Of a DNA stretch of 64,000 nt, positions 1,605 through 62,557 are shown one piece after another (position 1 is the first letter of the stretch; each line of letters opens with the position of its first letter). This DNA is from a virus: positions 62,001 to 126,000 of the IMG/VR virus record IMGVR_UViG_3300008108_000011. One strand, given 5' to 3'. Both the position numbers and the translations under genes were made by a program. The notes under the pieces were generated by a model that had not been told where the DNA came from, made no database searches, and was given only the letters and a program-made list of their open reading frames with translations.

Positions 1605-3014
1605 ATGCCAATATATTCAACTAGTAGAGATGTAGGGTGGAATGCATGTAGTAACTCTAATTGGAGTTCATTCATGAATAGTTATGCATCAACTCCTTAT
1701 AATCCAAGTCAAACTACTGGGTTGAGGGGAGTTGTAATAACTGGAGGTTGGAATATTAATGCTCCTTATTCTGGCAACTATACATTGACAGTTGCTACAG
1801 ATGATTATGGAACTATAAATTATAGTGGAACTACATTTAGTTCTGGTGGATTCACTACAAGTGGAAATAGTTCTACTAAGTATTTTTCTCAAGGGCAAAA
1901 TATTGCGTGGTCTTGGAGTGTGCAGAATAGCACTAGTTCTGATAGTTTTATATTTAATCCTGTTGCTATCGCTTTTACTTTAGATGGTCCTTCTAGACCA
2001 AATGCTCCATCTGTAAGTATTTCTGTAAACCCTTCTTCTATTATTAATAATGGATCATCTTCAGCAACATTATCTTGGTCTGCTTCTGGAAACGTAAGTA
2101 GTGTTAGTGTTACTGATGTAAGTAGCCCTGGAACATCAGGAAGCAGAACTGTTCAGCCAACCTCTACTAGAACATATACTATCACTGCAAGCGGTGAAGG
2201 TGGAACAAGTAATGCAAGTACAACTCTTACTGTATATCAACCACCAAATCTTACGTTATCTTTAGACAGATCTTCTATTGCCGCAGGAGAATCTACTACA
2301 CTTAGATGGTCAACTACTGGAGACGCAAGCACAATTACATGGACTTCTGGTGGTATTACTAATGGCAACTTGAATAGTTTTACTACAGTTTCACCAACAC
2401 AATCACAAACTTATTCTGCAACTGTTTCTGGATTAGGTGGTAGTGATAGTGATAGTATTAGATTAACAGTATATCAAAGACCAACAGTTTCATTGACTGT
2501 TCCAACTACATTAAATTATGGTCAACAGGGTATTATAAGTTATGAGAGTTGTTATAGCAATACATCATTAACAATTACTCCATCTTACAGTTACTCTAAT
2601 TCTTCTGGATCATCAACTGTAACTGGTGATGCTATTGCTCTACCCACACCAAATTCTGCTGAAGAAGGTGTTGGAATAAATTGTGTTAGTGGAACGTTAA
2701 ATACTACTATACCTTACACTAGTTCTGGTCCTAGAACAGTTACTTACTCTTTAGCTGCAGTAGGTTCTGGCGGCGATCGAACAATTACTAATAGTGTAAC
2801 AATTAATATCGATGAAACTCCAGAAAATATTAATGTTCCTGAAACAGATGAGTTATATAAACAACAAGAACCAATTTATACACCAAACTACACAATAACA
2901 TCAAATTATTTAGAAATTGCTGATATTGATATCCCCGTGGAGATAAAATCTAATTTTCCGATTAAAGTGGATAGAAATAGACAAGACAACTGGCAAGATT
3001 TAAGACAAATATAA
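1605..3014 (+). CDS. Ig-like virion fibre protein, second tandem paralogue
   Basis: 469 residues. The N-terminal ~130 residues are unique (Asn/Ser/Tyr/Trp-rich, probably beta-sandwich). Two Ig-like modules follow (GSSSATLSWSASG near residue 150; GESTTLRWSTTGDAS near 228), then a third beta module and the conserved tail PENINVPETDE, DIDIPVEIKSN, WQDLRQI. The unit after about residue 225 is shared with both neighbours while the N-terminus is not. That suggests a fixed virion-anchoring part carrying exchangeable tips. The start is the first ATG, one base after the preceding stop. Role as a fibre or decoration protein is inferred from domain type and position beside the collar fibre. Confidence 0.8.
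   Translation: MPIYSTSRDVGWNACSNSNWSSFMNSYASTPYNPSQTTGLRGVVITGGWNINAPYSGNYTLTVATDDYGTINYSGTTFSSGGFTTSGNSSTKYFSQGQNIAWSWSVQNSTSSDSFIFNPVAIAFTLDGPSRPNAPSVSISVNPSSIINNGSSSATLSWSASGNVSSVSVTDVSSPGTSGSRTVQPTSTRTYTITASGEGGTSNASTTLTVYQPPNLTLSLDRSSIAAGESTTLRWSTTGDASTITWTSGGITNGNLNSFTTVSPTQSQTYSATVSGLGGSDSDSIRLTVYQRPTVSLTVPTTLNYGQQGIISYESCYSNTSLTITPSYSYSNSSGSSTVTGDAIALPTPNSAEEGVGINCVSGTLNTTIPYTSSGPRTVTYSLAAVGSGGDRTITNSVTINIDETPENINVPETDELYKQQEPIYTPNYTITSNYLEIADIDIPVEIKSNFPIKVDRNRQDNWQDLRQI
2280..2378 (+). repeat. 99-bp perfect direct repeat, copy A
   Basis: Identical base for base to 4012-4110; it encodes the AAGESTTLRWSTTGDAS Ig-like segment. A second perfect block of 68 bp follows (2436-2503 equals 4168-4235). 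The surrounding sequence has diverged, so identity at silent sites points to recent exchange between the paralogues. Confidence 0.95.
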
Positions 3015-3015
3015 G

Positions 3016-4740
3016 ATGGCAACATACACAACAAATCAAACCGTAACAATACCAGCAAACGCAGCAAATGTTAGAGTTCAAGTTGCTGGAGCTCGCGGTG
3101 GTAATGGTGGAAATGACGGAAATCCTGGAGGAACTGGTGGTAATGGTAGAAGAGGAACTTTTTATCTATCCGATTTTACTGCTAGAACATTAACATTAAA
3201 TATTGGTCAATCTGGTGGTAACGGATTTGGGTGTGTTTCTAATAGTGGATCTGGTGGTGGAGGATCTGGAGTTGCTAGTGGTGGTAATGGTGGTCTTACT
3301 GGTCCTCAAGGATGCTCTGGTGGTGGTGGCGGCGGCGGCGGTGCTACTGGAGTATATGATTCTGTTGCTAGTGGTTGGATAATTGTCGCGGCTGGGGGTG
3401 GCGGAGCGGGTGGAGCTAGTTATCCTGATAGTTTTTTACGTGGTGGTGATGGTGGTTTTGGATTGGGTTTCCTTACTGGTGATGTAAATAGCATATCTAG
3501 AGGTGGTAATGGATCATCGCAAGGATTTGATGGGGGAGGTGGAGGTGGTGGTGGTGGTGGATGCCCAGGAGGCGGCGGTGGTAGAGAAGGAGCTGATGAT
3601 AGAGCAGGTAGATATCCATCTGGAGGTGGTAGTGGAGGTGCCAGTTCATATAATTCTAGTTATGCTACTTTGAGTGGATCTGGCGATACTCATAATGGAA
3701 GTGGTTATGTAGATATTACTTACGATTTAATTAGCCCTAGTGCCACTAGTTTTACTGCTACTCCTTCTTCAATTATACGAGGTCAATCTACTAGATTGGA
3801 GTGGACTACAACTAATACAGTTAGTGCATCAATTAATAATGGCGTTGGTAATGTAACGGTTCCTAATAGTTTTGTTGATGTGTATCCCACTCAAACTACA
3901 ACATATGTTCTTAATTTAGTTGGATATGGTAATGCAACTGGATCTGCTCAAGTTACGATTACTGTATATCAACCACCTATTTTAACTTTCACATTAGATA
4001 GAAATCCAATAGCCGCAGGAGAATCTACTACACTTAGATGGTCAACTACTGGAGACGCAAGCACAATTACATGGACTTCTGGTGGTATTACTAATGGCAA
4101 CTTGAATAGTAATGCCATAGTTTCTCCTTCAGAAAGCACAACATATTCAGCAGTTGTTTCTGGATTGGGTGGTAGTGATAGTGATAGTATTAGATTAACA
4201 GTATATCAAAGACCAACAGTTTCATTGACTGTTCCTGCAAGTATAAATTATGGTCAACAAGGAACAATATCTTATAGTAGTTCATATTCTAATACGAGTT
4301 TAATATTGCAACCTGTTTATACTTACGGAAGAGGAGTTGGAACAATTAACGGAACTGCAATAACTTTAACAAAACCAACTTCTGCTGAAAGTGGTGTTGG
4401 TATAACTACTGTTAATGGAACAATAACAACAGAAATACCATATAATACTACTGGTCCTTTTTCTGTTTCTTATACTCTTACTGGTGTTGGTGGTGGTGGA
4501 GAAGCTTCCACTACTTCAGAAATACAAATTATAGTGGATGAAACACCCGAAAATATTAATCTACCAGAAACTGAAAATGTTTATAAATTGCAAGAACCAA
4601 TTAATACACCAGATTATACTGTAACATCAAATTATCTTGCAGTTGATGGTGTTGACATTCCAGTTGAAGTAAGATCAAATAGACCTATTAAGGTAGATAG
4701 AAATCAGCAACAGGATTGGCAAGATATAAGACAACTATAA
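3016..4740 (+). CDS. Glycine-rich adhesin-like virion protein, third tandem paralogue
   Basis: 574 residues. It opens with a strand pattern (QTVTIPANAANVRVQVAGA) followed by ~190 residues of extreme Gly-rich sequence, including runs of 8-10 glycines and blocks such as GGGGGGGGATG. This resembles the glycine-rich domain family seen in phage tips and in animal ALK-type receptors. After it come an Ig-like module (residues ~245-320), the GESTTLRWSTTGDAS module (~340) and the conserved tail ending WQDIRQL. Stretches of 99 and 68 bp are identical in nucleotide sequence to the preceding gene, implying recent recombination or conversion. The C-terminus overlaps a late promoter for the next gene. A receptor-binding role is inferred. 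Confidence 0.82.
   Translation: MATYTTNQTVTIPANAANVRVQVAGARGGNGGNDGNPGGTGGNGRRGTFYLSDFTARTLTLNIGQSGGNGFGCVSNSGSGGGGSGVASGGNGGLTGPQGCSGGGGGGGGATGVYDSVASGWIIVAAGGGGAGGASYPDSFLRGGDGGFGLGFLTGDVNSISRGGNGSSQGFDGGGGGGGGGGCPGGGGGREGADDRAGRYPSGGGSGGASSYNSSYATLSGSGDTHNGSGYVDITYDLISPSATSFTATPSSIIRGQSTRLEWTTTNTVSASINNGVGNVTVPNSFVDVYPTQTTTYVLNLVGYGNATGSAQVTITVYQPPILTFTLDRNPIAAGESTTLRWSTTGDASTITWTSGGITNGNLNSNAIVSPSESTTYSAVVSGLGGSDSDSIRLTVYQRPTVSLTVPASINYGQQGTISYSSSYSNTSLILQPVYTYGRGVGTINGTAITLTKPTSAESGVGITTVNGTITTEIPYNTTGPFSVSYTLTGVGGGGEASTTSEIQIIVDETPENINLPETENVYKLQEPINTPDYTVTSNYLAVDGVDIPVEVRSNRPIKVDRNQQQDWQDIRQL
4012..4110 (+). repeat. 99-bp perfect direct repeat, copy B
   Basis: Second copy of the block at 2280-2378, in the following paralogue; see also 4168-4235 matching 2436-2503. 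Confidence 0.95.
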
Positions 4741-12259: not shown

Positions 12260-13201
12260 ATGAAAACAAACATCATTCACGTTGGAGACAACATCACCAA
12301 TCTGAAGAATCTTCCTGATTCTTCTGTGGATTTGTGTGTCACTTCGCCACCTTATTATAACCTGCGTGACTATCAGAATGCAGGTCAAATTGGTGTGGAA
12401 AATACTGTGAGTGAGTATGTAGAGAATCTTTGCAAAGTATTTGATGAGATCTATCGTGTATTGAAACCGACTGGATCGTGTTGGGTCAATATTGCTGATA
12501 CATACGATAAGAAGCGTTTGCTTCAGGTTCCTAGTCGTTTTGAGATTGCCATGTGTGATCGTGGATGGCAGCTCAGAAATGAAATTATTTGGAACAAACC
12601 TAATCCACAACCAATCTCTTCGAAGGATCGTTTCTGGTCTAATCATGAGAAGTTCTTTTGGTTTGTGAAGGATGTGAAAAAATACTATTTTGATCGAGAT
12701 CCTATTCTTGTGCCACAAGCAGAGATTAGTATTCGACGCATGTTCTCTAAGAACAATGTAGATAAGCGTAAGGATGCTAATGCATCTGAAAAGGAAGGAT
12801 TTGCGATTTCATCCGTGAGTCAGGATAAGCATTATGCCCGTATGCGAGAAGAGATGGGTATCTCCAAAGATTTTGATTATGAGGCATTGATTGCTGCTGG
12901 CAAGTGCCCCATGCGACCAGAATTCAGCGTCTGGGAGGTCGCTAGCACCACCTACAAGGGCGCTCACTTCGCTGTCTACCCTCCCGATCTGATCGCCAAA
13001 CCTGTTCTCTCGTGCTGCCCCTTAGACGGCGTTGTGGTCGATCCTTTTATGGGGTCTGGAACCACGGGTGAAGTGGCAAAAGCAAATCAGCGTAAGTATA
13101 TTGGGTTTGAACTGAATCCAGAATATGCTAAACTGGCGGAGCAACGTATCGCGTCGGTCTCGGGGGCTTCTCTGGGGAAATTCCTTGACACGGTTGCCTG
13201 A
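12260..13201 (+). CDS. DNA methyltransferase (N4-cytosine or N6-adenine, class beta)
   Basis: 313 residues from the ATG at 12260; an upstream in-frame ATG at 12218 would overlap the preceding gene by 41 bp. The catalytic motif IV comes first (TSPPYYNLRDY, residues 28-38) and the AdoMet-binding motif I last (DPFMGSGTTG, residues 261-270), the order of class beta enzymes. The SPPY form is usual in N4-cytosine enzymes but also occurs in N6-adenine ones. A variable region (residues ~155-230) could be the target-recognition part. In a phage such an enzyme typically protects genome DNA from host restriction. Target sequence cannot be read from the protein. Confidence 0.92.
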   Translation: MKTNIIHVGDNITNLKNLPDSSVDLCVTSPPYYNLRDYQNAGQIGVENTVSEYVENLCKVFDEIYRVLKPTGSCWVNIADTYDKKRLLQVPSRFEIAMCDRGWQLRNEIIWNKPNPQPISSKDRFWSNHEKFFWFVKDVKKYYFDRDPILVPQAEISIRRMFSKNNVDKRKDANASEKEGFAISSVSQDKHYARMREEMGISKDFDYEALIAAGKCPMRPEFSVWEVASTTYKGAHFAVYPPDLIAKPVLSCCPLDGVVVDPFMGSGTTGEVAKANQRKYIGFELNPEYAKLAEQRIASVSGASLGKFLDTVA

Positions 13202-26203: not shown

Positions 26204-26241
26204 GCAGGGGTCTTGACGATCCCTGCTTTTTCCTGTATATT
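26204..26241 (+). promoter_or_regulatory. Terminator hairpin with embedded promoter
   Basis: GCAGGG (26204-26209) and CCCTGC (26221-26226) followed by five T form a small intrinsic terminator. Its loop contains the -35 TTGACG (26213-26218); a 17-bp spacer leads to -10 TATATT (26236-26241). The helicase ATG is at 26264, after the leader GTTGAAACGACACGGC. Confidence 0.78.
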
Positions 26242-26263
26242 ATATTTGTTGAAACGACACGGC

Positions 26264-27514
26264 ATGAAACTTCGCTCTCACCAACCTCGCACCATTGCCG
26301 CCATGCAGAAAGCATGTAAAGGCATTGTAATTCAACCTACGGGTGCTGGCAAGACTCTAGAGCAGATTCTGCACTTGCAGGGGCGTCTAGATGCCTCTCA
26401 GAGCGGTCTTACTGCAGTAATTGTTGCTCCGCGTCTGCTCCTGTGTAATCAATTGTCTGACGAATATCTGCAGGTAATTGACACCAAGAAGGTTCACATT
26501 TTGCACGTTCACTCTGGTGAAACGCACCACTTCAGCAGCACCAAATCTGATACGATTGCACTGTTCAACAATACTGCTCGTGCTGCTGGTGAGTCTTGCC
26601 TGATCTTCACCACCTATCATTCTCTGCATCGTATTGTTGATGCTGGTATTGATATTGATGTTGCTTACTTCGATGAAGCACACAATGCTACCAGCAAGCA
26701 ATTCTTTCCCAAGACTGCTATGGTATCTGAGATGGCAAACAACTGCTATTTCTTTACTGCAACGCCTCGTCATTCTAAGAATCCGAAAGGTCGTGGCATG
26801 AACAACTCTCTGGTGTTTGGTGATGTGATTGAGATCACGCCTGCACAGGAACTGATTGAGTCTGGTAGCATCATTCCTCCCTCGATTCAGATTCACGAAC
26901 AACCTGCAGTTGCTCGCACTAAAGCTAACGCTCACGAGTGTGATGCCAACACTGTGCTGGAGATTGTAGACAATCTCGATGCTGAGTCTGGGCAGAAAGT
27001 TCTGATCGCTGCACCATCCTCCAAGATCATTTGGAACATGGTTGCTGCTACTGCACTGCTGCAGGATCTATCTGAGCGTGGTTACGATGTGATGCACATC
27101 ACTGCTAAGCACGGTGCCTACGTTAACAAAACCAAAGTGAACCGTGAGGTATTCTTTGACACGCTGACTGCATGGGGCAAAGACCCCAACCGTAAGTTTG
27201 TGGTGTTTCACTATAGCATTCTGTCTGAGGGTATCAATGTTCCTGGTCTGACGCATTGTGTGCTGCTTCGTAACCTCAACATTGTGGAGATGGCACAAAC
27301 CATTGGTCGTGTAATCCGCATGAATGTGGATGATGCGCGTGATATTGCGGAAGGCAAACTCACTGCTGGTGACCTGGGTAACTATCGCAAACCGTTTGGT
27401 TTCGTGACTGTGCCCATCTACGGTAACTATGGCGCACAGATTCAGAAGCGTCTGCAGAATGTTGTAGATGCTATCTTCGTCAAGGGTGTGCCGCCCACTT
27501 CCATTATTGCATGA
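26264..27514 (+). CDS. SF2 DNA/RNA helicase (DEAH-type)
   Basis: 416 residues from ATG 26264; the longer frame back to 26213 contains the promoter. Helicase motifs: Q-like segment RSHQPRTI, Walker A QPTGAGKT (residues 24-31), VIVAPRLLL (Ia), DEAH (137-140), FTATPR (III, 164-169), a second RecA-like domain with FHYSILSEGINVPGLTHC (V) and QTIGRVIRM (VI). The layout is that of compact single-chain translocases such as the T4 UvsW/RadD type. Extra nuclease or specificity domains are not seen. A role in replication, recombination or fork remodelling is likely from the family. Confidence 0.88.
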   Translation: MKLRSHQPRTIAAMQKACKGIVIQPTGAGKTLEQILHLQGRLDASQSGLTAVIVAPRLLLCNQLSDEYLQVIDTKKVHILHVHSGETHHFSSTKSDTIALFNNTARAAGESCLIFTTYHSLHRIVDAGIDIDVAYFDEAHNATSKQFFPKTAMVSEMANNCYFFTATPRHSKNPKGRGMNNSLVFGDVIEITPAQELIESGSIIPPSIQIHEQPAVARTKANAHECDANTVLEIVDNLDAESGQKVLIAAPSSKIIWNMVAATALLQDLSERGYDVMHITAKHGAYVNKTKVNREVFFDTLTAWGKDPNRKFVVFHYSILSEGINVPGLTHCVLLRNLNIVEMAQTIGRVIRMNVDDARDIAEGKLTAGDLGNYRKPFGFVTVPIYGNYGAQIQKRLQNVVDAIFVKGVPPTSIIA

Positions 27515-29315: not shown

Positions 29316-29515
29316 TCACTCTACAAACCATCAATCCCACCACCTATAAAGTGGTTCTTCAAACCGAAGATCTTACTGAAGAAGAGCGCACTAAACTGAT
29401 CAGAAAGCGTGACTTCTTCCCTGCTGAGTTTGTTCACGCACTCATTGATCTTCTCCCACCTGATCAAACATTTGACACATACGATCACTATAACATGACT
29501 CTATATGTCAAATGA
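29312..29515 (+). CDS. Hypothetical protein (67 aa)
   Basis: Beta strand, helix and strand pattern (TYKVVLQTEDLTEEERTKLI; FVHALIDLLPPDQTFDTYD). Coupled to the upstream gene and overlapping the next by 11 bp. Confidence 0.68.
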   Translation: MITLQTINPTTYKVVLQTEDLTEEERTKLIRKRDFFPAEFVHALIDLLPPDQTFDTYDHYNMTLYVK

Positions 29516-29726
29516 ACAGCAATACAATGAATTAATCGATTGGGCGGGGGATCGTATAGATCTCCTGCTCTCTCGTAGTAAAGCATGTAAAACATCACAA
29601 CGTAAAACAACACATAGACTGAACGCACAAGCATTAGAAGAAGAGTTCTTTGATTGGTTCGCTGCTAGACATTCAGACTCTACTCAAAATGTTCTCTTCA
29701 TACCCTATCATGGAAAACTATCCTAG
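29505..29726 (+). CDS. Hypothetical protein (73 aa)
   Basis: Helical, basic in the middle (RSKACKTSQRKTTHRLNAQA). Overlaps the following oxygenase gene by about 17 bp. Confidence 0.65.
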   Translation: MSNEQQYNELIDWAGDRIDLLLSRSKACKTSQRKTTHRLNAQALEEEFFDWFAARHSDSTQNVLFIPYHGKLS

Positions 29727-30345
29727 GTGCTCTACTGTAGGTGTCATTCAAACTCACCTACCACATACAATCATTGATACAATTAGAACTGAATGCCACG
29801 CCTACGATAATCAAATCAAACAAGCAAACACATTCAATAATAATACTAATTACCGTAAGACATTCATCAAAGCAATATCATCCTATGAATGGTTCGCTGG
29901 TATGCTCTGGCATTATATCTCACGAGCTAATAGAGAGAACTTTCTATTTGATATCACCTGCCTAGAGAATGAAGGATTAAATCATCTCATCTATCCTCCT
30001 GGGCATTACTATCATTGGCATCAAGATCAAGCATTGACATCATGCCTTCGCCCAACAATACTACCATCAGTCTATAACTCTACAATACAAGAGTCTTTGA
30101 CTGTAGAACACCAATGGATAAGAAAAATTTCTTTCTCATTACAACTAACAGATAGTAATGACTATACAGGGGGCGATCTACAATTCCATAATAATAATTA
30201 CACTAAGGAAGGAGTAATCACTGCACCTAGAGAGAAAGGATCATTGATTATATTTGATAGTAGACTATCACATAGGGTAACAAGAGTAAGAGAAGGAACA
30301 AGAGAAGCATTGGTAGGATGGGTATTAGGACCACGATGGAAATAG
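29710..30345 (+). CDS. 2OG-Fe(II) oxygenase (P4H-like)
   Basis: 211 residues from ATG 29710; ATG 29689 is an alternative and neither has a clear ribosome site. The catalytic core is clear: HYYHWHQDQ (H104, D106), SFSLQLTDSNDYTGGDLQFH, DSRLSHRVTRV (H188) and EGTREALVGWVLGPRWK (R198). The GGDLQ segment and final GPRW are typical of 2OG-Fe(II) prolyl-hydroxylase-like proteins. This is the fifth such enzyme in the window. Its stop directly abuts the first DnaA-box-like site. Substrate unknown. Confidence 0.87.
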   Translation: MENYPRCSTVGVIQTHLPHTIIDTIRTECHAYDNQIKQANTFNNNTNYRKTFIKAISSYEWFAGMLWHYISRANRENFLFDITCLENEGLNHLIYPPGHYYHWHQDQALTSCLRPTILPSVYNSTIQESLTVEHQWIRKISFSLQLTDSNDYTGGDLQFHNNNYTKEGVITAPREKGSLIIFDSRLSHRVTRVREGTREALVGWVLGPRWK

Positions 30346-30386
30346 TTTTCCACAGGGTTGTGGAAAAAGTATAGAGTTTTTCCACA
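30346..30386 (+). repeat. DnaA-box-like cluster 1 (three TTTTCCACA sites)
   Basis: TTTTCCACA at 30346-30354 (+), its complement at 30359-30367 (-) and TTTTCCACA at 30378-30386 (+). The first two also form a hairpin with a 4-nt spacer. As I recall, TTTTCCACA is the DnaA-box consensus of Synechococcus elongatus (E. coli TTATCCACA). The alternative reading is a bidirectional terminator after the oxygenase gene. Confidence 0.7.
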
Positions 30387-30540
30387 GATTTAAATGTGTT
30401 AAAAAATAGTATTGGGTTTTCTATGTGCTTCGTAGAATGTGTCTACAAATAGTCTGATGATACTGTGAAAGGTCTCAGAATCTTCAGAGTTGTTGTAGTC
30501 TTAGCACGCGAGCTAACGAGTTGTCAAGCGTTTGTCACAA

Positions 30541-30677
30541 AACTCAAAAATCTCAAAAAACTCAAAAATCTCAAAAACGACAAAACTGAGATTTCTGAGA
30601 ATTCTGTATTTCCAAGGTTTTTTGAGTTTTTTCGAATTTTAAAAAACTTAATTTTTTAGTTTTTTGAGATTTTTGAG
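30541..30677 (+). repeat. AT-rich region with 18-bp direct and inverted repeats
   Basis: The 18-bp unit AACTCAAAAATCTCAAAA occurs twice in tandem (30541-30558, 30559-30576). An 18-bp arm (30543-30560) is perfectly complementary to 30660-30677 (TTTTTTGAGATTTTTGAG), with further partial copies near 30617 and 30671. The 450-bp gap (30346-30803) has no believable gene; this AT-rich part could be a duplex-unwinding element or a large hairpin. Confidence 0.8.
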
Positions 30678-30747
30678 ACTTTTGAGAATTTTAAAGTCTT
30701 ATAATTATAACTTATCATTATAATAAGGGTTACTAATCAATAAAGGG

Positions 30748-30776
30748 TTGACAAACCATCGAAAATACAGTATTAT
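30748..30776 (+). promoter_or_regulatory. Sigma-70-type promoter with GTAATC leader
   Basis: -35 TTGACA (30748-30753), 17-bp spacer, -10 TATTAT (30771-30776), then TACTAAGTAATCAATCAAAG before ATG 30804. Confidence 0.78.
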
Positions 30777-30803
30777 TACTAAGTAATCAATCAAAGACAT
30801 CGA

Positions 30804-31046
30804 ATGACTGTCAAAAACTACACTGATCTTCCTAGTTCTGCTATCAAAAACATCACTATTGATACTGTAAAGAACACTGTATCAGTAGAGTATACTACTG
30901 GTAACAAACAGTATACTTACAGCACCGAAGATGCTGAAGGTTTTGATCAGCAACTGCTGTCAGAATTCGACTCTGATGATATCTCAGTGGGTCGATTCAT
31001 GAATCAGAGCGTCACAAATGGCACTCTGAATCTGCTTGTTGACTGA
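30804..31046 (+). CDS. KTSC-like domain protein (80 aa)
   Basis: Pattern of the small KTSC family: SSAIKNITIDTVKNTVSVEY, then a beta hairpin TTGNKQYTYS, a helix, and SVGRFMNQSV at the end. KTSC proteins are about 60-80 residues, found in phages and bacteria, some fused to enzymes, with unknown function. AT-rich codons here contrast with the second, GC-rich KTSC-like gene at 33024. Confidence 0.72.
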   Translation: MTVKNYTDLPSSAIKNITIDTVKNTVSVEYTTGNKQYTYSTEDAEGFDQQLLSEFDSDDISVGRFMNQSVTNGTLNLLVD

Positions 31047-31151
31047 CCCTACCACAGATAAATACGTTTGTCAAGGGGTAAAGACACCAATTTGGTTGTC
31101 AATATCCCTTCCAGACGATTCTAGACACCTCTCAGAGAACATTTCAAACCG

Positions 31152-31316
31152 ATGGCTAAATCCAAAGCAGGAAACTACAAGGATAATTTCTATAACGAAT
31201 TCGATGAATTCGAAGAGCATGAAGTAGAACAAAAGTATGGTGTGAAAGTGAAGAATATTGGTCGCACTCCAAAGAAACAGAAAAAGCTTAAATTTGATGG
31301 TGATTTTGAATGGTAA
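31152..31316 (+). CDS. Small charged protein (54 aa)
   Basis: 54 codons: an acidic middle (NEFDEFEEHEVEQKYG) followed by a basic stretch (RTPKKQKKLKF). Highly charged and probably partly disordered. Upstream, GATAAATA at 31055-31062 resembles a late promoter by 7 of 8 bases. Flanked downstream by the second DnaA-box-like cluster. Confidence 0.65.
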   Translation: MAKSKAGNYKDNFYNEFDEFEEHEVEQKYGVKVKNIGRTPKKQKKLKFDGDFEW

Positions 31317-31329
31317 TCTAATAAAATAG

Positions 31330-31393
31330 TTTTCCACAGATATACTAAAACCTGTGGAAAACTTTCAATAGTTTTCCACAACCCTGTGGAAAA
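31330..31393 (+). repeat. DnaA-box-like cluster 2 (four sites, two hairpins)
   Basis: TTTTCCACA at 31330-31338 (+), complement at 31353-31361 (-), TTTTCCACA at 31372-31380 (+), complement at 31385-31393 (-). Each pair forms a perfect 11-bp inverted repeat (GTTTTCCACAG/CTGTGGAAAAC and AGTTTTCCACA/TGTGGAAAACT). No T-run follows either hairpin, which argues somewhat against simple terminators. Confidence 0.75.
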
Positions 31394-31403
31394 CTCTCAT
31401 AAG

Positions 31404-31475
31404 CCCCCCTAATCAGACCCATAAGCAAAGGTGATGGTTAGGGGGGTTGACTTTTGCCCCGATCTGACCCATACT
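31404..31475 (+). promoter_or_regulatory. Hairpin-promoter cassette
   Basis: A 9-bp inverted repeat CCCCCCTAA (31404-31412) / TTAGGGGGG (31438-31446) abuts -35 TTGACT (31447-31452); 17-bp spacer; -10 CATACT (31470-31475); then ACCTAAGTCAACAGCAAACG to the ATG at 31500. First cassette of the GC-rich island. Confidence 0.75.
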
Positions 31476-31499
31476 ACCTAAGTCAACAGCAAACGACCC

Positions 31500-31811
31500 A
31501 TGCGCCTCATCGAACGCCAAATGAACGCTGCTATCACCAACAGCAAAGATTGGCAGAAAGACAATACCATGGTGAGCAACGCTGATGGTGTTTCTTTCGT
31601 GTTTCTTCATGGTAACTGTATCGCCCAGATTGGTGATACGTTTGTGCGACTGTTTGATGGTGGTTGGCAAACTAACACCACCAAATCTCGCCTGAATGCT
31701 ATCCTGACTGCACACGGCAACGGTGAGCGTGTTTTCCAGAAGAATTTCAATTGGTTTGTTAGCACTGCTGCAGGCGATGTTGAGTTCGAATCTGGTATGC
31801 TTCTCGCCTGA
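31500..31811 (+). CDS. Conserved-looking cyanophage protein (103 aa)
   Basis: Opens MRLIERQMNAAITNSKDWQK and contains VSFVFLHGNCIAQIGDTFVR and GGWQTNTTKSRLNAILTAHG. I recall small phage proteins with the same opening and the LHGN-IA segment, none characterised. Basic N-terminal helix and a beta core. Driven by its own cassette promoter. Confidence 0.8.
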   Translation: MRLIERQMNAAITNSKDWQKDNTMVSNADGVSFVFLHGNCIAQIGDTFVRLFDGGWQTNTTKSRLNAILTAHGNGERVFQKNFNWFVSTAAGDVEFESGMLLA

Positions 31812-31851
31812 ACTTTACACTACATACTAACTGAAACCCATGGAGGATTAC

Positions 31852-31980
31852 ATGACCATTTCTGAAATGTATCAAGAGATTGTTGATCAAGAGGTGGCAG
31901 ACATTTTCCTTGATAGTGATAGTTTGATCGTTGACGATTATGCTCTCGAAGATGTAATCGAAGAGGTCTACGATTTGTAA
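31852..31980 (+). CDS. Small very acidic protein (42 aa)
   Basis: ATG 31852 has GGAGG at 5-6 bp upstream; an ATG at 31840 would put that site inside the gene. Nearly a quarter to a third of residues are Asp or Glu (DQEVADIFLDSDSLIVDDYA), as in DNA-mimic or host-binding early proteins. Function unknown. Confidence 0.65.
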   Translation: MTISEMYQEIVDQEVADIFLDSDSLIVDDYALEDVIEEVYDL

Positions 31981-31999
31981 TACAAACTGATCAGCCGCC

Positions 32000-32058
32000 C
32001 GACCAGTTGGGGAACTGTCACACCACTGGTCGCCGCGGCCACCCCCTGCCCTTATACT
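32000..32058 (+). promoter_or_regulatory. Hairpin-promoter cassette
   Basis: An 8-bp inverted repeat CGACCAGT (32000-32007) / ACTGGTCG (32025-32032), then -10 TATACT (32053-32058), then ATAGAAGTCAAACGCACC. No recognisable -35. ATG at 32084. Confidence 0.65.
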
Positions 32059-32083
32059 ATAGAAGTCAAACGCACCGAGACCT

Positions 32084-32212
32084 ATGTGGGATGAGATCCA
32101 AGACATGCCTGGTGAGATCTTCGATATCGAAGATTGGGGGCACCCCCTAGCAGAGTGCTGGCACGATATGGAGCTGAATGTGCCAGATGAAGAGGTGGCA
32201 CAGGAGGGGTGA
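32084..32212 (+). CDS. Small acidic protein (42 aa)
   Basis: 42 codons behind a cassette promoter; acidic, Trp-rich (WDEIQDMPGEIFDIEDWGHP). Its stop codon lies in the loop of the next cassette's hairpin. Function unknown. Confidence 0.65.
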   Translation: MWDEIQDMPGEIFDIEDWGHPLAECWHDMELNVPDEEVAQEG

Positions 32213-32239
32213 CCCTCCCCCCTCTCCTGCCTCTATACT
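32203..32239 (+). promoter_or_regulatory. Hairpin-promoter cassette
   Basis: Stem GGAGGG (32203-32208) / CCCTCC (32213-32218), loop GTGA holding the upstream stop codon, then -10 TATACT (32234-32239) and GATCAAGTCAACCACACACG. ATG at 32265. -35 is weak (GTGACC, 19 bp). Confidence 0.68.
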
Positions 32240-32264
32240 GATCAAGTCAACCACACACGAGACC

Positions 32265-32432
32265 ATGACCCGCTTCGAAGTTTACGTGCCCTCTGCCCCT
32301 TACGAGTCCGAGAGCACCTGGGATCTCGATCGTGCCTGGGATCTGTGCCTCTCGCTGAGCGAGGAGTTCGGATACGCTCAGGTTCGCCAGGATGGTATCA
32401 TCCTGGGAGACTACACCAACGGGGGTGTGTGA
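32265..32432 (+). CDS. Small protein (55 aa)
   Basis: Start at ATG 32265; the longer frame runs back through the cassette and previous gene. A strand (TRFEVYVPSAPYESESTWDL), a helix (DRAWDLCLSLSEEFGYA) and a beta end. GC-rich codons. Function unknown. Confidence 0.7.
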   Translation: MTRFEVYVPSAPYESESTWDLDRAWDLCLSLSEEFGYAQVRQDGIILGDYTNGGV

Positions 32433-32452
32433 CACTCTAGAAACTGGCACAA

Positions 32453-32488
32453 GGGGTCACCACAGACCCCACCCTGACCCTCTATACT
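32453..32488 (+). promoter_or_regulatory. Hairpin-promoter cassette
   Basis: Stem GGGGTC (32453-32458) / GACCCC (32465-32470) with 6-nt loop, then -10 TATACT (32483-32488), GATCAAGTCAACCAAACAAAGCAA and ATG 32513. From -10 to GTCAACC identical to the cassette at 32234. Confidence 0.7.
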
Positions 32489-32512
32489 GATCAAGTCAAC
32501 CAAACAAAGCAA

Positions 32513-32941
32513 ATGACCGTGACTCTGACCTCCAACTATCGTGACATGCTCGCTGCTGCCACTGTTGAGAAGATCGATGAATTGCTCGATGAGAACTATG
32601 CTCTCGATGACATGCTCGAATTCATCGATGAGCGTAATGAGAACGATTTTGTAGCATACTATGAAGAGTATTGCCGTTGTGGTGAAGCAATCGGTTACGA
32701 TGCTGTAGATGCTCTCATCGATGAGATGGGGTGCGTTTCTGACATCGAAGGGTGTGATGATCGCTTCCGTGGTTGGTATGAATCGACCGCTGATTTCGCT
32801 GAAGAGTTTTATACTGATACCTACGATGTTCCCTCTGCATTGGTGATCGATTGGGAGGCAACTTACGATAGCACCCTCCGCTACGATTACACTGCCTGTG
32901 AGAAAGGTTATCGTCAGGTGGCGATCTTCTCTGATTACTGA
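32513..32941 (+). CDS. ArdA-like antirestriction protein
   Basis: 142 residues, very acidic. The C-terminal half follows the ArdA pattern: FRGWYESTADFAEEFYTDTY, then VPSALVIDWEATYDSTLRYD and GYRQVAIF. ArdA proteins mimic about 42 bp of bent B-DNA and block type I restriction enzymes; the acidic composition fits. The N-terminal region (VEKIDELLDENYALDDMLEF) is helical and acidic. The usual ArdA is ~165 residues, so this is slightly short. It would act early, consistent with its own promoter. Alternative: an unrelated DNA mimic. Confidence 0.68.
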   Translation: MTVTLTSNYRDMLAAATVEKIDELLDENYALDDMLEFIDERNENDFVAYYEEYCRCGEAIGYDAVDALIDEMGCVSDIEGCDDRFRGWYESTADFAEEFYTDTYDVPSALVIDWEATYDSTLRYDYTACEKGYRQVAIFSDY

Positions 32942-32949
32942 GTGACAGT

Positions 32950-33000
32950 CTGAGAGGTGGCACACGCTGCCTCTCAGCACCCCATCCTAGCCCCTATACT
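32950..33000 (+). promoter_or_regulatory. Hairpin-promoter cassette
   Basis: Perfect 8-bp stem CTGAGAGG (32950-32957) / CCTCTCAG (32970-32977), then -10 TATACT (32995-33000), GATCTCAGTTCAAACGACACACG and ATG 33024. No -35 seen. Confidence 0.68.
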
Positions 33001-33023
33001 GATCTCAGTTCAAACGACACACG

Positions 33024-33224
33024 ATGTTCAAGGCATTCACCCTCGGATCTACCGCCATCAGCAAGATGACCGCCGATCCTATCACGGGCACCGTTCGCGT
33101 TCGCTTTCGTGGGGGCACTAAGTTCTACCGCTTCGAGAACGTCTCCCGTCGCGCCATCGTGGCGATGCTGCTGCGCCCTCCCGTGAGCATGGGCCAGTGG
33201 GTAAACCGTCACTGCCTCGCCTGA
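33024..33224 (+). CDS. KTSC-like domain protein, GC-rich (66 aa)
   Basis: Same arrangement as the 30804 product: STAISKMTADPITGTVRVRF, then GGTKFYRFENV, a helix, and SMGQWVNRH. Pairwise identity is low but the pattern (small residue-Ala-Ile, beta strands, Gly-x-x-hydrophobic near the end) fits KTSC. Codon choice is much more GC-rich than its relative 2 kb upstream, so the two copies have different histories. Confidence 0.7.
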   Translation: MFKAFTLGSTAISKMTADPITGTVRVRFRGGTKFYRFENVSRRAIVAMLLRPPVSMGQWVNRHCLA

Positions 33225-33248
33225 TCAGGTCGCCTGACCCTGTAGACT
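33225..33248 (+). promoter_or_regulatory. Hairpin-promoter cassette
   Basis: Stem TCAGG (33225-33229) / CCTGA (33233-33237), then -10 TAGACT (33243-33248), AATCACATCAGCAAACAACCC and ATG 33270. Weak -10, no -35. Confidence 0.5.
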
Positions 33249-33269
33249 AATCACATCAGCAAACAACCC

Positions 33270-33431
33270 ATGAGAATCGAAGTTCGTTACCAGACTCCCT
33301 ACAATGCTTGTGAGTGGCGCTCGCAGTGGTTTAAGGATCTGGCAGAGGCAGAGCGTATGGTAGAATTCTATCGCTCCTGTGGGTCACCCTCTCACATCGC
33401 CCCTTCCTCCCTCGCTCAGTTCGATCGCTGA
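33270..33431 (+). CDS. Small protein (53 aa)
   Basis: 53 codons behind a cassette. A strand (MRIEVRYQTP), a helix (SQWFKDLAEAERMVEFYRSC) and a short tail; looks like a compact beta-alpha protein. Function unknown. Confidence 0.63.
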   Translation: MRIEVRYQTPYNACEWRSQWFKDLAEAERMVEFYRSCGSPSHIAPSSLAQFDR

Positions 33432-33438
33432 TTCTACC

Positions 33439-33579
33439 ATGCCGAACCTCATCCGCCTTTCCCTGGTCGCCGCCATCTGCCTGATGTTCGCCAACACCCT
33501 AGGATCGGTGTTCGCCCTAGCCCAGACCCTAGACCGTGTGACAGCCGAGAAGGTGGCACAGATCGCCGCCATCGACTGA
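33439..33579 (+). CDS. Small exported or membrane protein (46 aa)
   Basis: Start at ATG 33439, 7 bp after the previous stop. Basic start, hydrophobic stretch (LSLVAAICLMFANTLGSVFA) with a possible signal-peptidase site after VFALA, then a short polar tail. GC-rich codons. Confidence 0.6.
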   Translation: MPNLIRLSLVAAICLMFANTLGSVFALAQTLDRVTAEKVAQIAAID

Positions 33580-33590
33580 CCCCGACCCTG

Positions 33591-33596
33591 TAGACT
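33591..33596 (+). promoter_or_regulatory. Cassette -10 box and leader
   Basis: -10 TAGACT followed by GATCTCAGTTCAAACAAAGCAA and ATG 33619. GATCTCAGTTCAAAC is identical to the 32995 cassette and AAACAAAGCAAATGACC to the 32483 cassette, so the leader looks like a hybrid of both. No hairpin or -35 seen. Confidence 0.55.
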
Positions 33597-33618
33597 GATC
33601 TCAGTTCAAACAAAGCAA

Positions 33619-33792
33619 ATGACCAACCCCAAGATCGACCTCGCCGCCATCATGGCAGACTACACCACCCGCTACAATGAGATGCAGGCACGGTCTGCCG
33701 CCAACCGCCAGGCATTCGCTGAGGGTCGCCCCTTCCCCTTCCCCGCCCCCGAGTGCCAGTCTGACACCTGGAACATCAGCGACCGCCACTGA
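33619..33792 (+). CDS. Small protein (57 aa)
   Basis: 57 codons, Ala- and Pro-rich (IDLAAIMADYTTRYNEMQAR; EGRPFPFPAPE). The FPFPAP segment suggests an extended tail. Stop lies within the next hairpin. Function unknown. Confidence 0.6.
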   Translation: MTNPKIDLAAIMADYTTRYNEMQARSAANRQAFAEGRPFPFPAPECQSDTWNISDRH

Positions 33793-33811
33793 GCGGCGCT
33801 GCCTGTAGAAT
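33778..33811 (+). promoter_or_regulatory. Hairpin-promoter cassette
   Basis: Stem AGCG-a-CCGC / GCGG-CGCT (33778-33800, one bulge), loop holding the upstream stop region, then -10 TAGAAT (33806-33811), TCTCTCAGTTCAACCGACAG and ATG 33839. Confidence 0.55.
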
Positions 33812-33838
33812 TCTCTCAGTTCAACCGACAGACGACCG

Positions 33839-34033
33839 ATGATCCTCAGCATGGCATCCGACCTTCAGACCCGCCGCATCGTGTGGGCAGGTCGCAAGAC
33901 AGAGACCGCACAGCAGACCATGGGGCAAGATCTGCCCCTGACCGTAGAGAGTGAGTGGATCGCGGGCGCTTACTCTGACCGCTGGCATGATGAGGCGATC
34001 GCCGCCCTGCCCCTGTTCACCCACGCCGACTGA
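33839..34033 (+). CDS. Small protein (64 aa)
   Basis: 64 codons, mixed composition (SDLQTRRIVWAGRKTETAQQ; LTVESEWIAGAYSDRWHDEA). Probably beta strands plus a helix. Stop lies 3 bp before the HicA-like gene. Function unknown; antitoxin (HicB-like) identity is not supported by the sequence. Confidence 0.65.
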   Translation: MILSMASDLQTRRIVWAGRKTETAQQTMGQDLPLTVESEWIAGAYSDRWHDEAIAALPLFTHAD

Positions 34034-34680: not shown

Positions 34681-34727
34681 AATTCGTAGATTCTGAACTA
34701 TATAAAAAAGATTCCATAAAATTATGA
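34641..34727 (+). CDS. Possible 28-aa leader peptide
   Basis: ATG at 34641, frame ending in an ATGA overlap with the AbrB-like gene (peptide starts MPASDAINGYPLKEF). The coupling suggests a leader peptide or tiny gene, but it coincides with the inverted repeat, so either interpretation may be wrong. Confidence 0.4.
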   Translation: MPASDAINGYPLKEFVDSELYKKDSIKL

Positions 34728-34930
34728 GTAAAGTATATCAATCAACAGTAGAATACAACGAAGATTTCAACGAATACTACCTAACGATTCCCGACGAGCT
34801 TTTAGATAATCTCGGATGGGAAGAAGGGGATGTATTAGAGTGGCATACAAATAAAGATGGCACTGTATTACTCGAAAGAGTAGATGAATATTTTGATGGA
34901 GAGAATGAGAGTGATGACGAACAATCCTAA
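34724..34930 (+). CDS. SpoVT/AbrB-like DNA-binding protein (68 aa)
   Basis: The N-terminal 50 residues show the swapped-hairpin AbrB pattern: YNEDFNEYYLTIPDELLDNL, then GWEEGDVLEW and GTVLLERV. Such domains occur in transition-state regulators and MazE-type antitoxins; here the tail is acidic (EYFDGENESDDEQ). No toxin gene lies beside it. Possible phage regulator of the following late genes or of its own promoter. Overlaps the next gene by 17 bp. Confidence 0.8.
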   Translation: MSKVYQSTVEYNEDFNEYYLTIPDELLDNLGWEEGDVLEWHTNKDGTVLLERVDEYFDGENESDDEQS

Positions 34931-61400: not shown

Positions 61401-62557
61401 CTACACAAAACGAAGATATTAATATTTCACCTGGAGCTGCATCGAGAATTCTTTCGGTTTCTGGAACAGGTGGGGTGAAATTACCTGTTGGTAATTCCAC
61501 CAATAGACCATCTGCATCAACTGCTGGTATTATTCGTTACAACACACAGACTTCTCAATATGAAGGTTCGAATGGAGTTAACTTCATTTCTCTTGGCGGT
61601 GTAAGAGATGTTGATGGAAATACTTATATTATTGCTGAGGAGACTGTAGGTGCTAATGATAATATTCTATATTTCTTCAATGATAATTATAACTCGGCAA
61701 GATTAAACCGAACAGAGTTAGAACTTACAACTGCAAATAAAATTTCTTCTAGAGATACTGATGGTAAATTTGCATGGAAGGCAAATACAGCATATCTTTT
61801 AAATGCATATGTATATTATGGAGATAATATATACAAAGTAACGACTGCAGGAACAACTTCAACTATAGCACCAACTCACACATCTGGTTCTGCTACGAAT
61901 GGAACTACAGTTCTTGAATATTATGGAGATTCTTATGGAAGTCTAGAAATAAGAGCAGATGAATTAAAAGTTGGTGTTAGATTTAACATTAATGATAAGT
62001 TAAAATTATATTCATATAATACAAATGATTTTATTCTAGAAAATCAAATTAATAATTTCCAGTTTGCTTTTGGAAATGTTTTAGGAGTTCCCGATACATT
62101 CTTAACAATAGATACAGCTGGAACTTTAAAAATTAATAAAAATTACGACACTGCTGGATCCACAAATAATCACATTCTATTAGATAAGACTCTCAAATAT
62201 ATTGAGCTAGATGATATTGCTTTAGCAACCGCCGATTCTTCACTAATTAAAGGAACCACCAACAGCGCAGCAACATCAGTATACAACACAACTACACATA
62301 AAGGTGCTAAAGTTGTGGTAGTTGCTGATAATATTACAACTGGTGATAGACATATCGTTGAATATAATGTTATTCATAAAAACTCAAATATATACGTTAA
62401 TGAGTATGGCAACTTAGATACAGGAACAGAACAATTTACCGCTTTATTTGATTTTGATGGTTCTGATAATGTTCGTGTTACTTATACATTAACTTCTGGT
62501 GTTTCTTCTGGAGACAACGTTGTGATTACTACTACCAAAACTCAAATTAAGAAGTAA
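58406..62557 (+). CDS. Long fibre-like protein with GSGY repeats, cupredoxin-like and carbohydrate-binding-like modules
   Basis: 1383 residues. N-terminus [20 protein letters not shown] is the kind that docks on the baseplate. Residues ~110-340 and ~790-950 hold beta repeats built around NGGSGY-x-GG and [10 protein letters not shown]. Around 458-548 is a small beta domain ([16 protein letters not shown] then [20 protein letters not shown]) that recalls cupredoxin copper sites. A region of [20 protein letters not shown]-type repeats is typical of trimeric fibres. Near 1131, [16 protein letters not shown] with TNGT resembles CBM5/12-like chitin-binding modules. No S74 chaperone motif was seen. 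A host-recognition fibre is likely. Confidence 0.8.

Follow-up and report, generated by a model that had tools for sequence, protein, structure and literature searches.

Phage T4 starts replication without host DnaA. How T4-like cyanophages begin to copy their genomes looks like an open question: a 2010 review (PMC2984593) cites the prediction of a single theta origin for cyanophage Syn9 and leaves it undecided for the other cyanomyoviruses. The locus described here lies in a 192,732-base virus record (IMGVR_UViG_3300008108_000011) that matches the T4-like cyanophage Syn9 in its proteins for replication, recombination and the virion. The window, i.e. the 64,000-nucleotide stretch analysed here (positions 62001–126000 of the record), contains at 30346–31393 a set of DnaA-box-like sites that the original prediction presented as a candidate replication origin. 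We lean towards this reading: the sequence makes it somewhat probable that 30346–31393 is a host-DnaA-binding replication-origin module of T4-like cyanophages. The conservation of this box-rich DNA suggests, more generally, that such viruses either make use of the host initiator or sequester it when they copy their genomes. If true, phage replication would be tied to the host initiator protein, unlike that of T4, and the locus would provide a precise, conserved and testable site for the start of replication in T4-like cyanophages. Among the titles and abstracts listed from the openly licensed literature, none describes DnaA boxes for T4-type cyanophages, and the term DnaA is absent from PMC3037559. 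What is new here is that an origin-like arrangement includes the DnaA boxes of the host in phages whose model member, T4, manages without such sites.

Two clusters of DnaA boxes

The sites themselves are as first described. Seven exact copies of TTTTCCACA, four on the plus and three on the minus strand, form two clusters on either side of a tract of AT-rich repeats (Table 1). No copies elsewhere had been noticed in the original prediction; the window carries two more, at 12394 (−) and 14687 (+), and the whole record ten (seven in the locus, two in the rest of the window and one in the rest of the record). The nine copies in the window compare with 1.35 expected, and nine or more were reached in 0 of 100 dinucleotide shuffles. 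A chance origin of the clusters is ruled out by these shuffles, by the singularity of TTTTCCACA as the sole 9-mer of the record with at least six non-overlapping copies inside 1.1 kb, and by its clustering in the corresponding loci of other viruses.

Table 1. Features of the box locus and its flanks, in window coordinates
Feature	Position	Strand	Remarks
2OG-Fe(II) oxygenase gene	29650–30345	+	PF13640, phrog_61; stop codon abuts the first box
DnaA-box cluster 1	30346–30386		TTTTCCACA at 30346 (+), 30359 (−), 30378 (+)
AT-rich core beside boxes	30390–30409	+	resembles AAATGtttAAAAAAATATA of relatives (alignment of 29 contexts, those listed)
Leftward promoter-like site	30498–30527	−	TTGACA, 18 nt, TAAGAC; faces AT core and cluster 1
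AT-rich 9-bp repeats of TCTCAAAAA type, with inverted copy	30535–30700		candidate unwinding element
Rightward sigma-70-type promoter-like site	30748–30776	+	TTGACA-17-TATTAT, 11/12 matches; perhaps an early promoter
80-aa gene between clusters	30804–31046	+	phrog_4357, function unknown
54-aa ORF	31152–31316	+	no family match; similar-sized genes here in S-RIM44 and Syn1
DnaA-box cluster 2	31330–31393		TTTTCCACA at 31330 (+), 31353 (−), 31372 (+), 31385 (−)
Kyano_Gp96 gene	31500–31811	+	PF23790; motif-independent anchor for the locus survey

Correspondence with the host initiator box

The assignment of TTTTCCACA to the cyanobacterial DnaA-box consensus is borne out by two publications and by host DNA. 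The DoriC 10 paper (PMC6323995) gives this sequence as the DnaA box of cyanobacteria, as does a paper on a Nostoc genome (PMC5987646). For the hosts, we retrieved the DNA upstream of dnaN from 40 of the 51 dnaN-matching genomes of a picocyanobacterium-like family (the family of G076). An exact TTTTCCACA occurs in 22 of these 40 stretches, at least three copies with at most one mismatch in 29, and the motif is their most widespread 9-mer, tied with a DnaA-trio-like sequence. In a class-level sample of 20 genomes, the retrieved dnaN stretch holds six or seven exact copies in five, several genomes have no exact box in that stretch, and four have no consensus box beside dnaN. A scan of genome contigs for boxes 12 bp apart, which returned at least 120 stretches (five of 80 among those listed named cyanobacteria), served only for picking a cyanobacterial starting sequence; a scan of viral contigs for paired boxes also returned at least 120 stretches, and no evidence was drawn from it. 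The locus contains clusters of boxes with the DnaA consensus of cyanobacteria, the presumed host group.

With the cyanobacterial oriC upstream of dnaN the phage locus shares the box sequence and the presence of several boxes on both strands. It differs by having no adjacent dnaN and no DnaA-trio-like run, by a tighter and different spacing (the commonest host pair is +− at 21 bp) and by an extra conserved promoter-like site. The DnaA-trio-like run, absent from 30300–31500, was found in 22 of the 40 host stretches and near the boxes in two of nine relatives; this test is coarse because such a run is present in 31% of random 750-bp pieces of the record and in only those two relatives. GC skew, proposed earlier as a check, gives no clean switch at the locus, a weak test where coding runs mostly one way. 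The candidate origin is upheld in part: host motif, conserved clusters and an origin-like composite element speak for it, whereas the skew switch and the DnaA-trio-like run are missing. These two absences, together with the existence of box-free relatives, argue against a mechanism like that of oriC.

The same sites might be used in another way. Escherichia coli datA is a DnaA-box cluster away from oriC, and the phage locus resembles it as a cluster of DnaA boxes apart from oriC. The boxes could titrate or inactivate host DnaA in a comparable way, stopping host initiation and thereby freeing nucleotides and replisome parts, while phage replication begins elsewhere. The missing DnaA-trio-like run is compatible with such a sink, as are the fact that the phage encodes its own replisome and the contrast between the exact consensus of the phage boxes and the often degenerate boxes of host oriC, many of which have a mismatch. 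We nonetheless regard a sink as unlikely, since seven sites per incoming genome are few before replication and titration would work without the AT core, the promoter-like site and the unstable repeat that share the region. By these three features the phage locus also departs from datA.

Conservation and spacing of the boxes

The comparison with related phages, proposed earlier, showed box clusters kept in many of them. The homologous region carries clusters in S-RIM44, Syn1, S-PM2, S-RIM32, Sf-CH11 and S-CREM1, six isolates that were picked by a similarity search using this region. We also carried out a motif-independent survey of the best 80 loci by Gp96 protein among the matches listed, many of them incomplete and with near-duplicates included. 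The most often clustered 9-mer of these 80 loci is TTTTCCACA, with at least three copies in 100 bp in 26 and two or more clustered copies in 33. Among cyanomyovirus isolates, 10 of 17 have at least two exact boxes inside 40 bp, or four of 11 once the six similarity-chosen isolates are set aside; the other seven of the 17, including all three isolated on Prochlorococcus, have no exact-box cluster. Because of these seven isolates, and because S-RSM4 retains the promoter-like site without boxes, the boxes are apparently dispensable in some lineages. T4 has two isolated copies of TTTTCCACA and differs from our phage in having no DnaA-box cluster, since the three DnaA-box patterns tested never give more than one copy in 100 bp there; P-SSP7 has zero copies of TTTTCCACA.

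Where clusters are kept, the boxes are more conserved than the DNA around them. Against the relative L282, they are identical at 27/27 positions in cluster 1 and 36/36 in cluster 2, compared with 130/164 (79%) and 56/74 (76%) of the other positions; against L274, cluster 2 gives 36/36 and 53/74 (72%). A further match, L141/L270, does not count as an independent locus: its proteins are identical to those of this phage, 16,504 of 20,600 bases align gap-free, and it may be the same virus. The spacing is also constrained. Of 120 neighbouring pairs in 69 distinct clusters, some of them related to one another, 75 fall into four classes (+− at 23 bp, ++ at 12 bp, −+ at 19 bp and +− at 13 bp). Such classes would be expected if the bound proteins occupied fixed sides of the double helix; the spacings of 13 and 23 bp lie about one helical turn apart.

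A spacing so unlike that of host oriC might also indicate sites bound by a phage-encoded protein that shares the host motif by coincidence, and in some relatives (S-CAM9 and those with CTCGACGAG arrays) other repeat arrays lie upstream of the same gene. We consider this very unlikely, as the motif is exactly identical to the host DnaA box and the neighbouring proteins searched, most of them without known function, gave no DNA-binding family.

The arrangement of the boxes also bears on the competing explanation first offered for them, namely hairpin transcription terminators. Cluster 2 can indeed fold two minus-strand stems followed by T-rich tails. Yet the coding strand has no terminator-like site, the two that exist (against 0.7 in shuffles) both lying on the minus strand, and cluster 1 of S-RIM44, Syn1 and Sf-CH11 consists of three same-strand boxes 12 bp apart. 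The same hairpin between genes elsewhere would have favoured terminators; within the genome, the paired form is confined to this locus. Direct-repeat clusters, minus-strand-only sites and this unique paired form lead us to reject terminators as scarcely credible.

A composite element beside the boxes

The boxes are part of a larger conserved arrangement. In 29 aligned contexts, selected by an independent 18-mer alone and not by TTGAC, the order is boxes, AT core, a variable stretch, GTTGTTGTCTTAGCACGC and TGTCAA, then AT-rich repeats in many of them. Read on the opposite strand, the conserved piece gives TTGACA, 17–18 nt and TAAGAC; TTGAC-spacer-TAAGnC is present in 28 of the 29 contexts and exact TTGACA in 22, and the strict form of this leftward site has a single occurrence in the record. 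In 27 of the 31 contexts chosen with the 18-mer, an exact box lies upstream at no more than 180 bp. The profile of the site also matches S-RIM32, Sf-CH11 and S-ShM2, weakly Syn9 and S-SM1, and at E ≤ 1 nothing in P-SSM2, P-SSM4, P-HM1, S-SM2, S-SSM7, S-CRM01, S-CAM9 or S-CREM1. We infer that it is a promoter whose transcript would run leftward through the AT core and then cluster 1; a consensus promoter scan does not list it, and its second hexamer matches TATAAT poorly.

The repeats that follow are predicted to be easily opened. The 100 bp from 30627 are the third least stable in the record (picks more than 300 bp apart), and the region ranks fifth with a 60-bp window, sixth with 150 bp and outside the first eight with 200 bp. 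The 16 relatives compared divide evenly: in eight, the locus has its least stable 100 bp no more than 540 bp from the boxes, and in eight it has them farther away. By its low predicted stability, the tract adjoining the boxes is a candidate AT-rich unwinding element.

Two promoter-like sites at about 110–360 bp from cluster 1 would also suit a transcription switch, in which host DnaA controls the leftward site and that at 30748, as a repressor or an activator, with no role in replication. Such a switch seems quite unlikely to us: the two small genes both lie upstream of cluster 2, and the low-stability repeat is left unaccounted for. Sites like the one at 30748, counted at any quality, number four against 3.0 in shuffles.

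The origin reading, which we prefer, would combine all these parts. Host DnaA, present at infection, would load onto the boxes; the adjacent AT-rich DNA would open, aided by the leftward transcript; and the phage replisome would be installed for the first rounds of replication, to be followed by recombination-dependent replication. The replisome genes gp41, gp61 and gp43 and the clamp genes are present in the phage. At T4 oriF, R-loop transcripts assist opening, and a transcript-assisted opening would fit the leftward site by analogy.

Some relatives carry a further type of repeat. In L288, L304 and L318, arrays of another palindromic repeat, CTCGACGAG, follow the boxes at a distance of approximately 160–195 bp, an iteron-like layout that accords with the origin reading. 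Iteron-type origins with DnaA boxes are known, e.g. P1 oriR; the three loci resemble it in having DnaA boxes beside repeat arrays and differ in that no initiator gene was identified and in belonging to T4-type phages. The CTCGACGAG arrays, with repeats mostly 20–70 bp apart, are found in 15 of the best 80 Gp96 loci (L280, L284, L286, L288, L298, L304, L312, L317, L318, L324, L326, L331, L336, L338 and L339), the 12 others of which have no box pairs. S-CAM9, which has no DnaA-box clusters, carries tandem GTCTTGTGTAAAGTGCTC repeats (L403 7021–7100) approximately 1.6 kb ahead of the Gp96 gene. In L304, an HNH homing endonuclease-like ORF recognised by eye (3006–3545) adjoins the box and repeat region.

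Comparison with known phage systems

T4 oriF (ori-uvsY) needs no DnaA. In the T4 record it lies at uvsY beside gene 25, and our locus resembles it in its gene-25 neighbourhood and, if read as an origin, in having a promoter beside easily opened DNA. It is not the same locus, because UvsY and UvsW are encoded elsewhere in the phage (157.9–159.8 kb of the record) and elsewhere in Syn9 too. The helicase encoded at 26213–27514 was rejected as UvsW, as it aligns weakly with T4 UvsW (22% identity) and the true UvsW lies elsewhere. Syn9 itself has two exact boxes and one near-box at 52.55–52.60 kb, possibly the same place as its predicted theta origin; the stretches of the Syn9 record examined contain no origin feature.

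The T5 injection stop signal acts in two-step DNA entry, and to our knowledge such entry is known for T5 and not for T4-type phages. One paper (PMC13250531) describes this signal as containing many repeats, palindromes and DnaA boxes, a description of phage DNA that our locus fits in outline. An entry signal of this kind seems highly improbable here, the locus being located at about 92 kb of a 193-kb record, although the record may not begin and end at the true genome ends. Sequence cannot separate origin, titration, transcription control and DNA entry.

Apparent absence of the helicase loader gp59

The phage has genes for gp32, gp33, gp41, gp43, gp44, gp45, gp47, gp61, gp62, UvsX, UvsY and UvsW, and a search with PF08993 at E ≤ 1 detected no gp59. 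Its gp33 gene is directly followed by a phrog_468 gene and gp32 (G000:26894–28481; L406 6894–8484; outside the window), and the gp33–gp32 junction without gp59 was observed in this phage and in G014. Scoring of 23 records (18 by PF08993 and five by tblastn) left gp59 undetected in eight further ones; G003, G004, G009, G012 and G013, with no gp32 match, were left out. At least three exact boxes in 100 bp occur in seven of nine records without gp59 and three of 14 with it (Fisher p = 0.013, with no correction for relatedness or sampling). Six box-bearing isolates in this comparison had been chosen for matching the locus, and of 18 long records, 10 were retrieved whole or in part, among them the five without a gp32 match, and eight were left out, including G017, which looks like a repeat of S-CAM9. 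Exceptions go both ways: S-RSM4 and S-SSM7 have neither gp59 nor boxes, and S-CREM1, G016 and G018 have both.

An association between the absence of gp59 and the boxes is a lead only, confounded but testable. It invites the speculation that host DnaA substitutes for the missing gp59. A fuller scenario, which we hold as doubtful though possible, is that a branch of T4-type phages dropped gp59 and initiates at a bipartite, host-DnaA-recruiting origin, with the same element carrying iteron-like arrays in sister lineages. If gp59 was indeed lost and host DnaA recruited, compatibility with host DnaA would help set host range.

Genomic surroundings of the locus

In S-RIM44, Syn1, S-PM2, S-RIM32 and Sf-CH11, too, the boxes are preceded by a homologue of the oxygenase gene. 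Pfam gave nothing above cut-offs for the small genes, and the one Rfam match in 29500–32500 reached 22.3 bits where the gathering score is 100, so that no RNA family is assigned. The stretch 30001–34000 of the window (G000 92001–96000) is GC-rich, at 46.9% compared with 28.9–43.9% in the other 4-kb bins, and GC skew dips there. A MazE-type antitoxin-like gene (PF04014) lies at 34724–34930 of the window.
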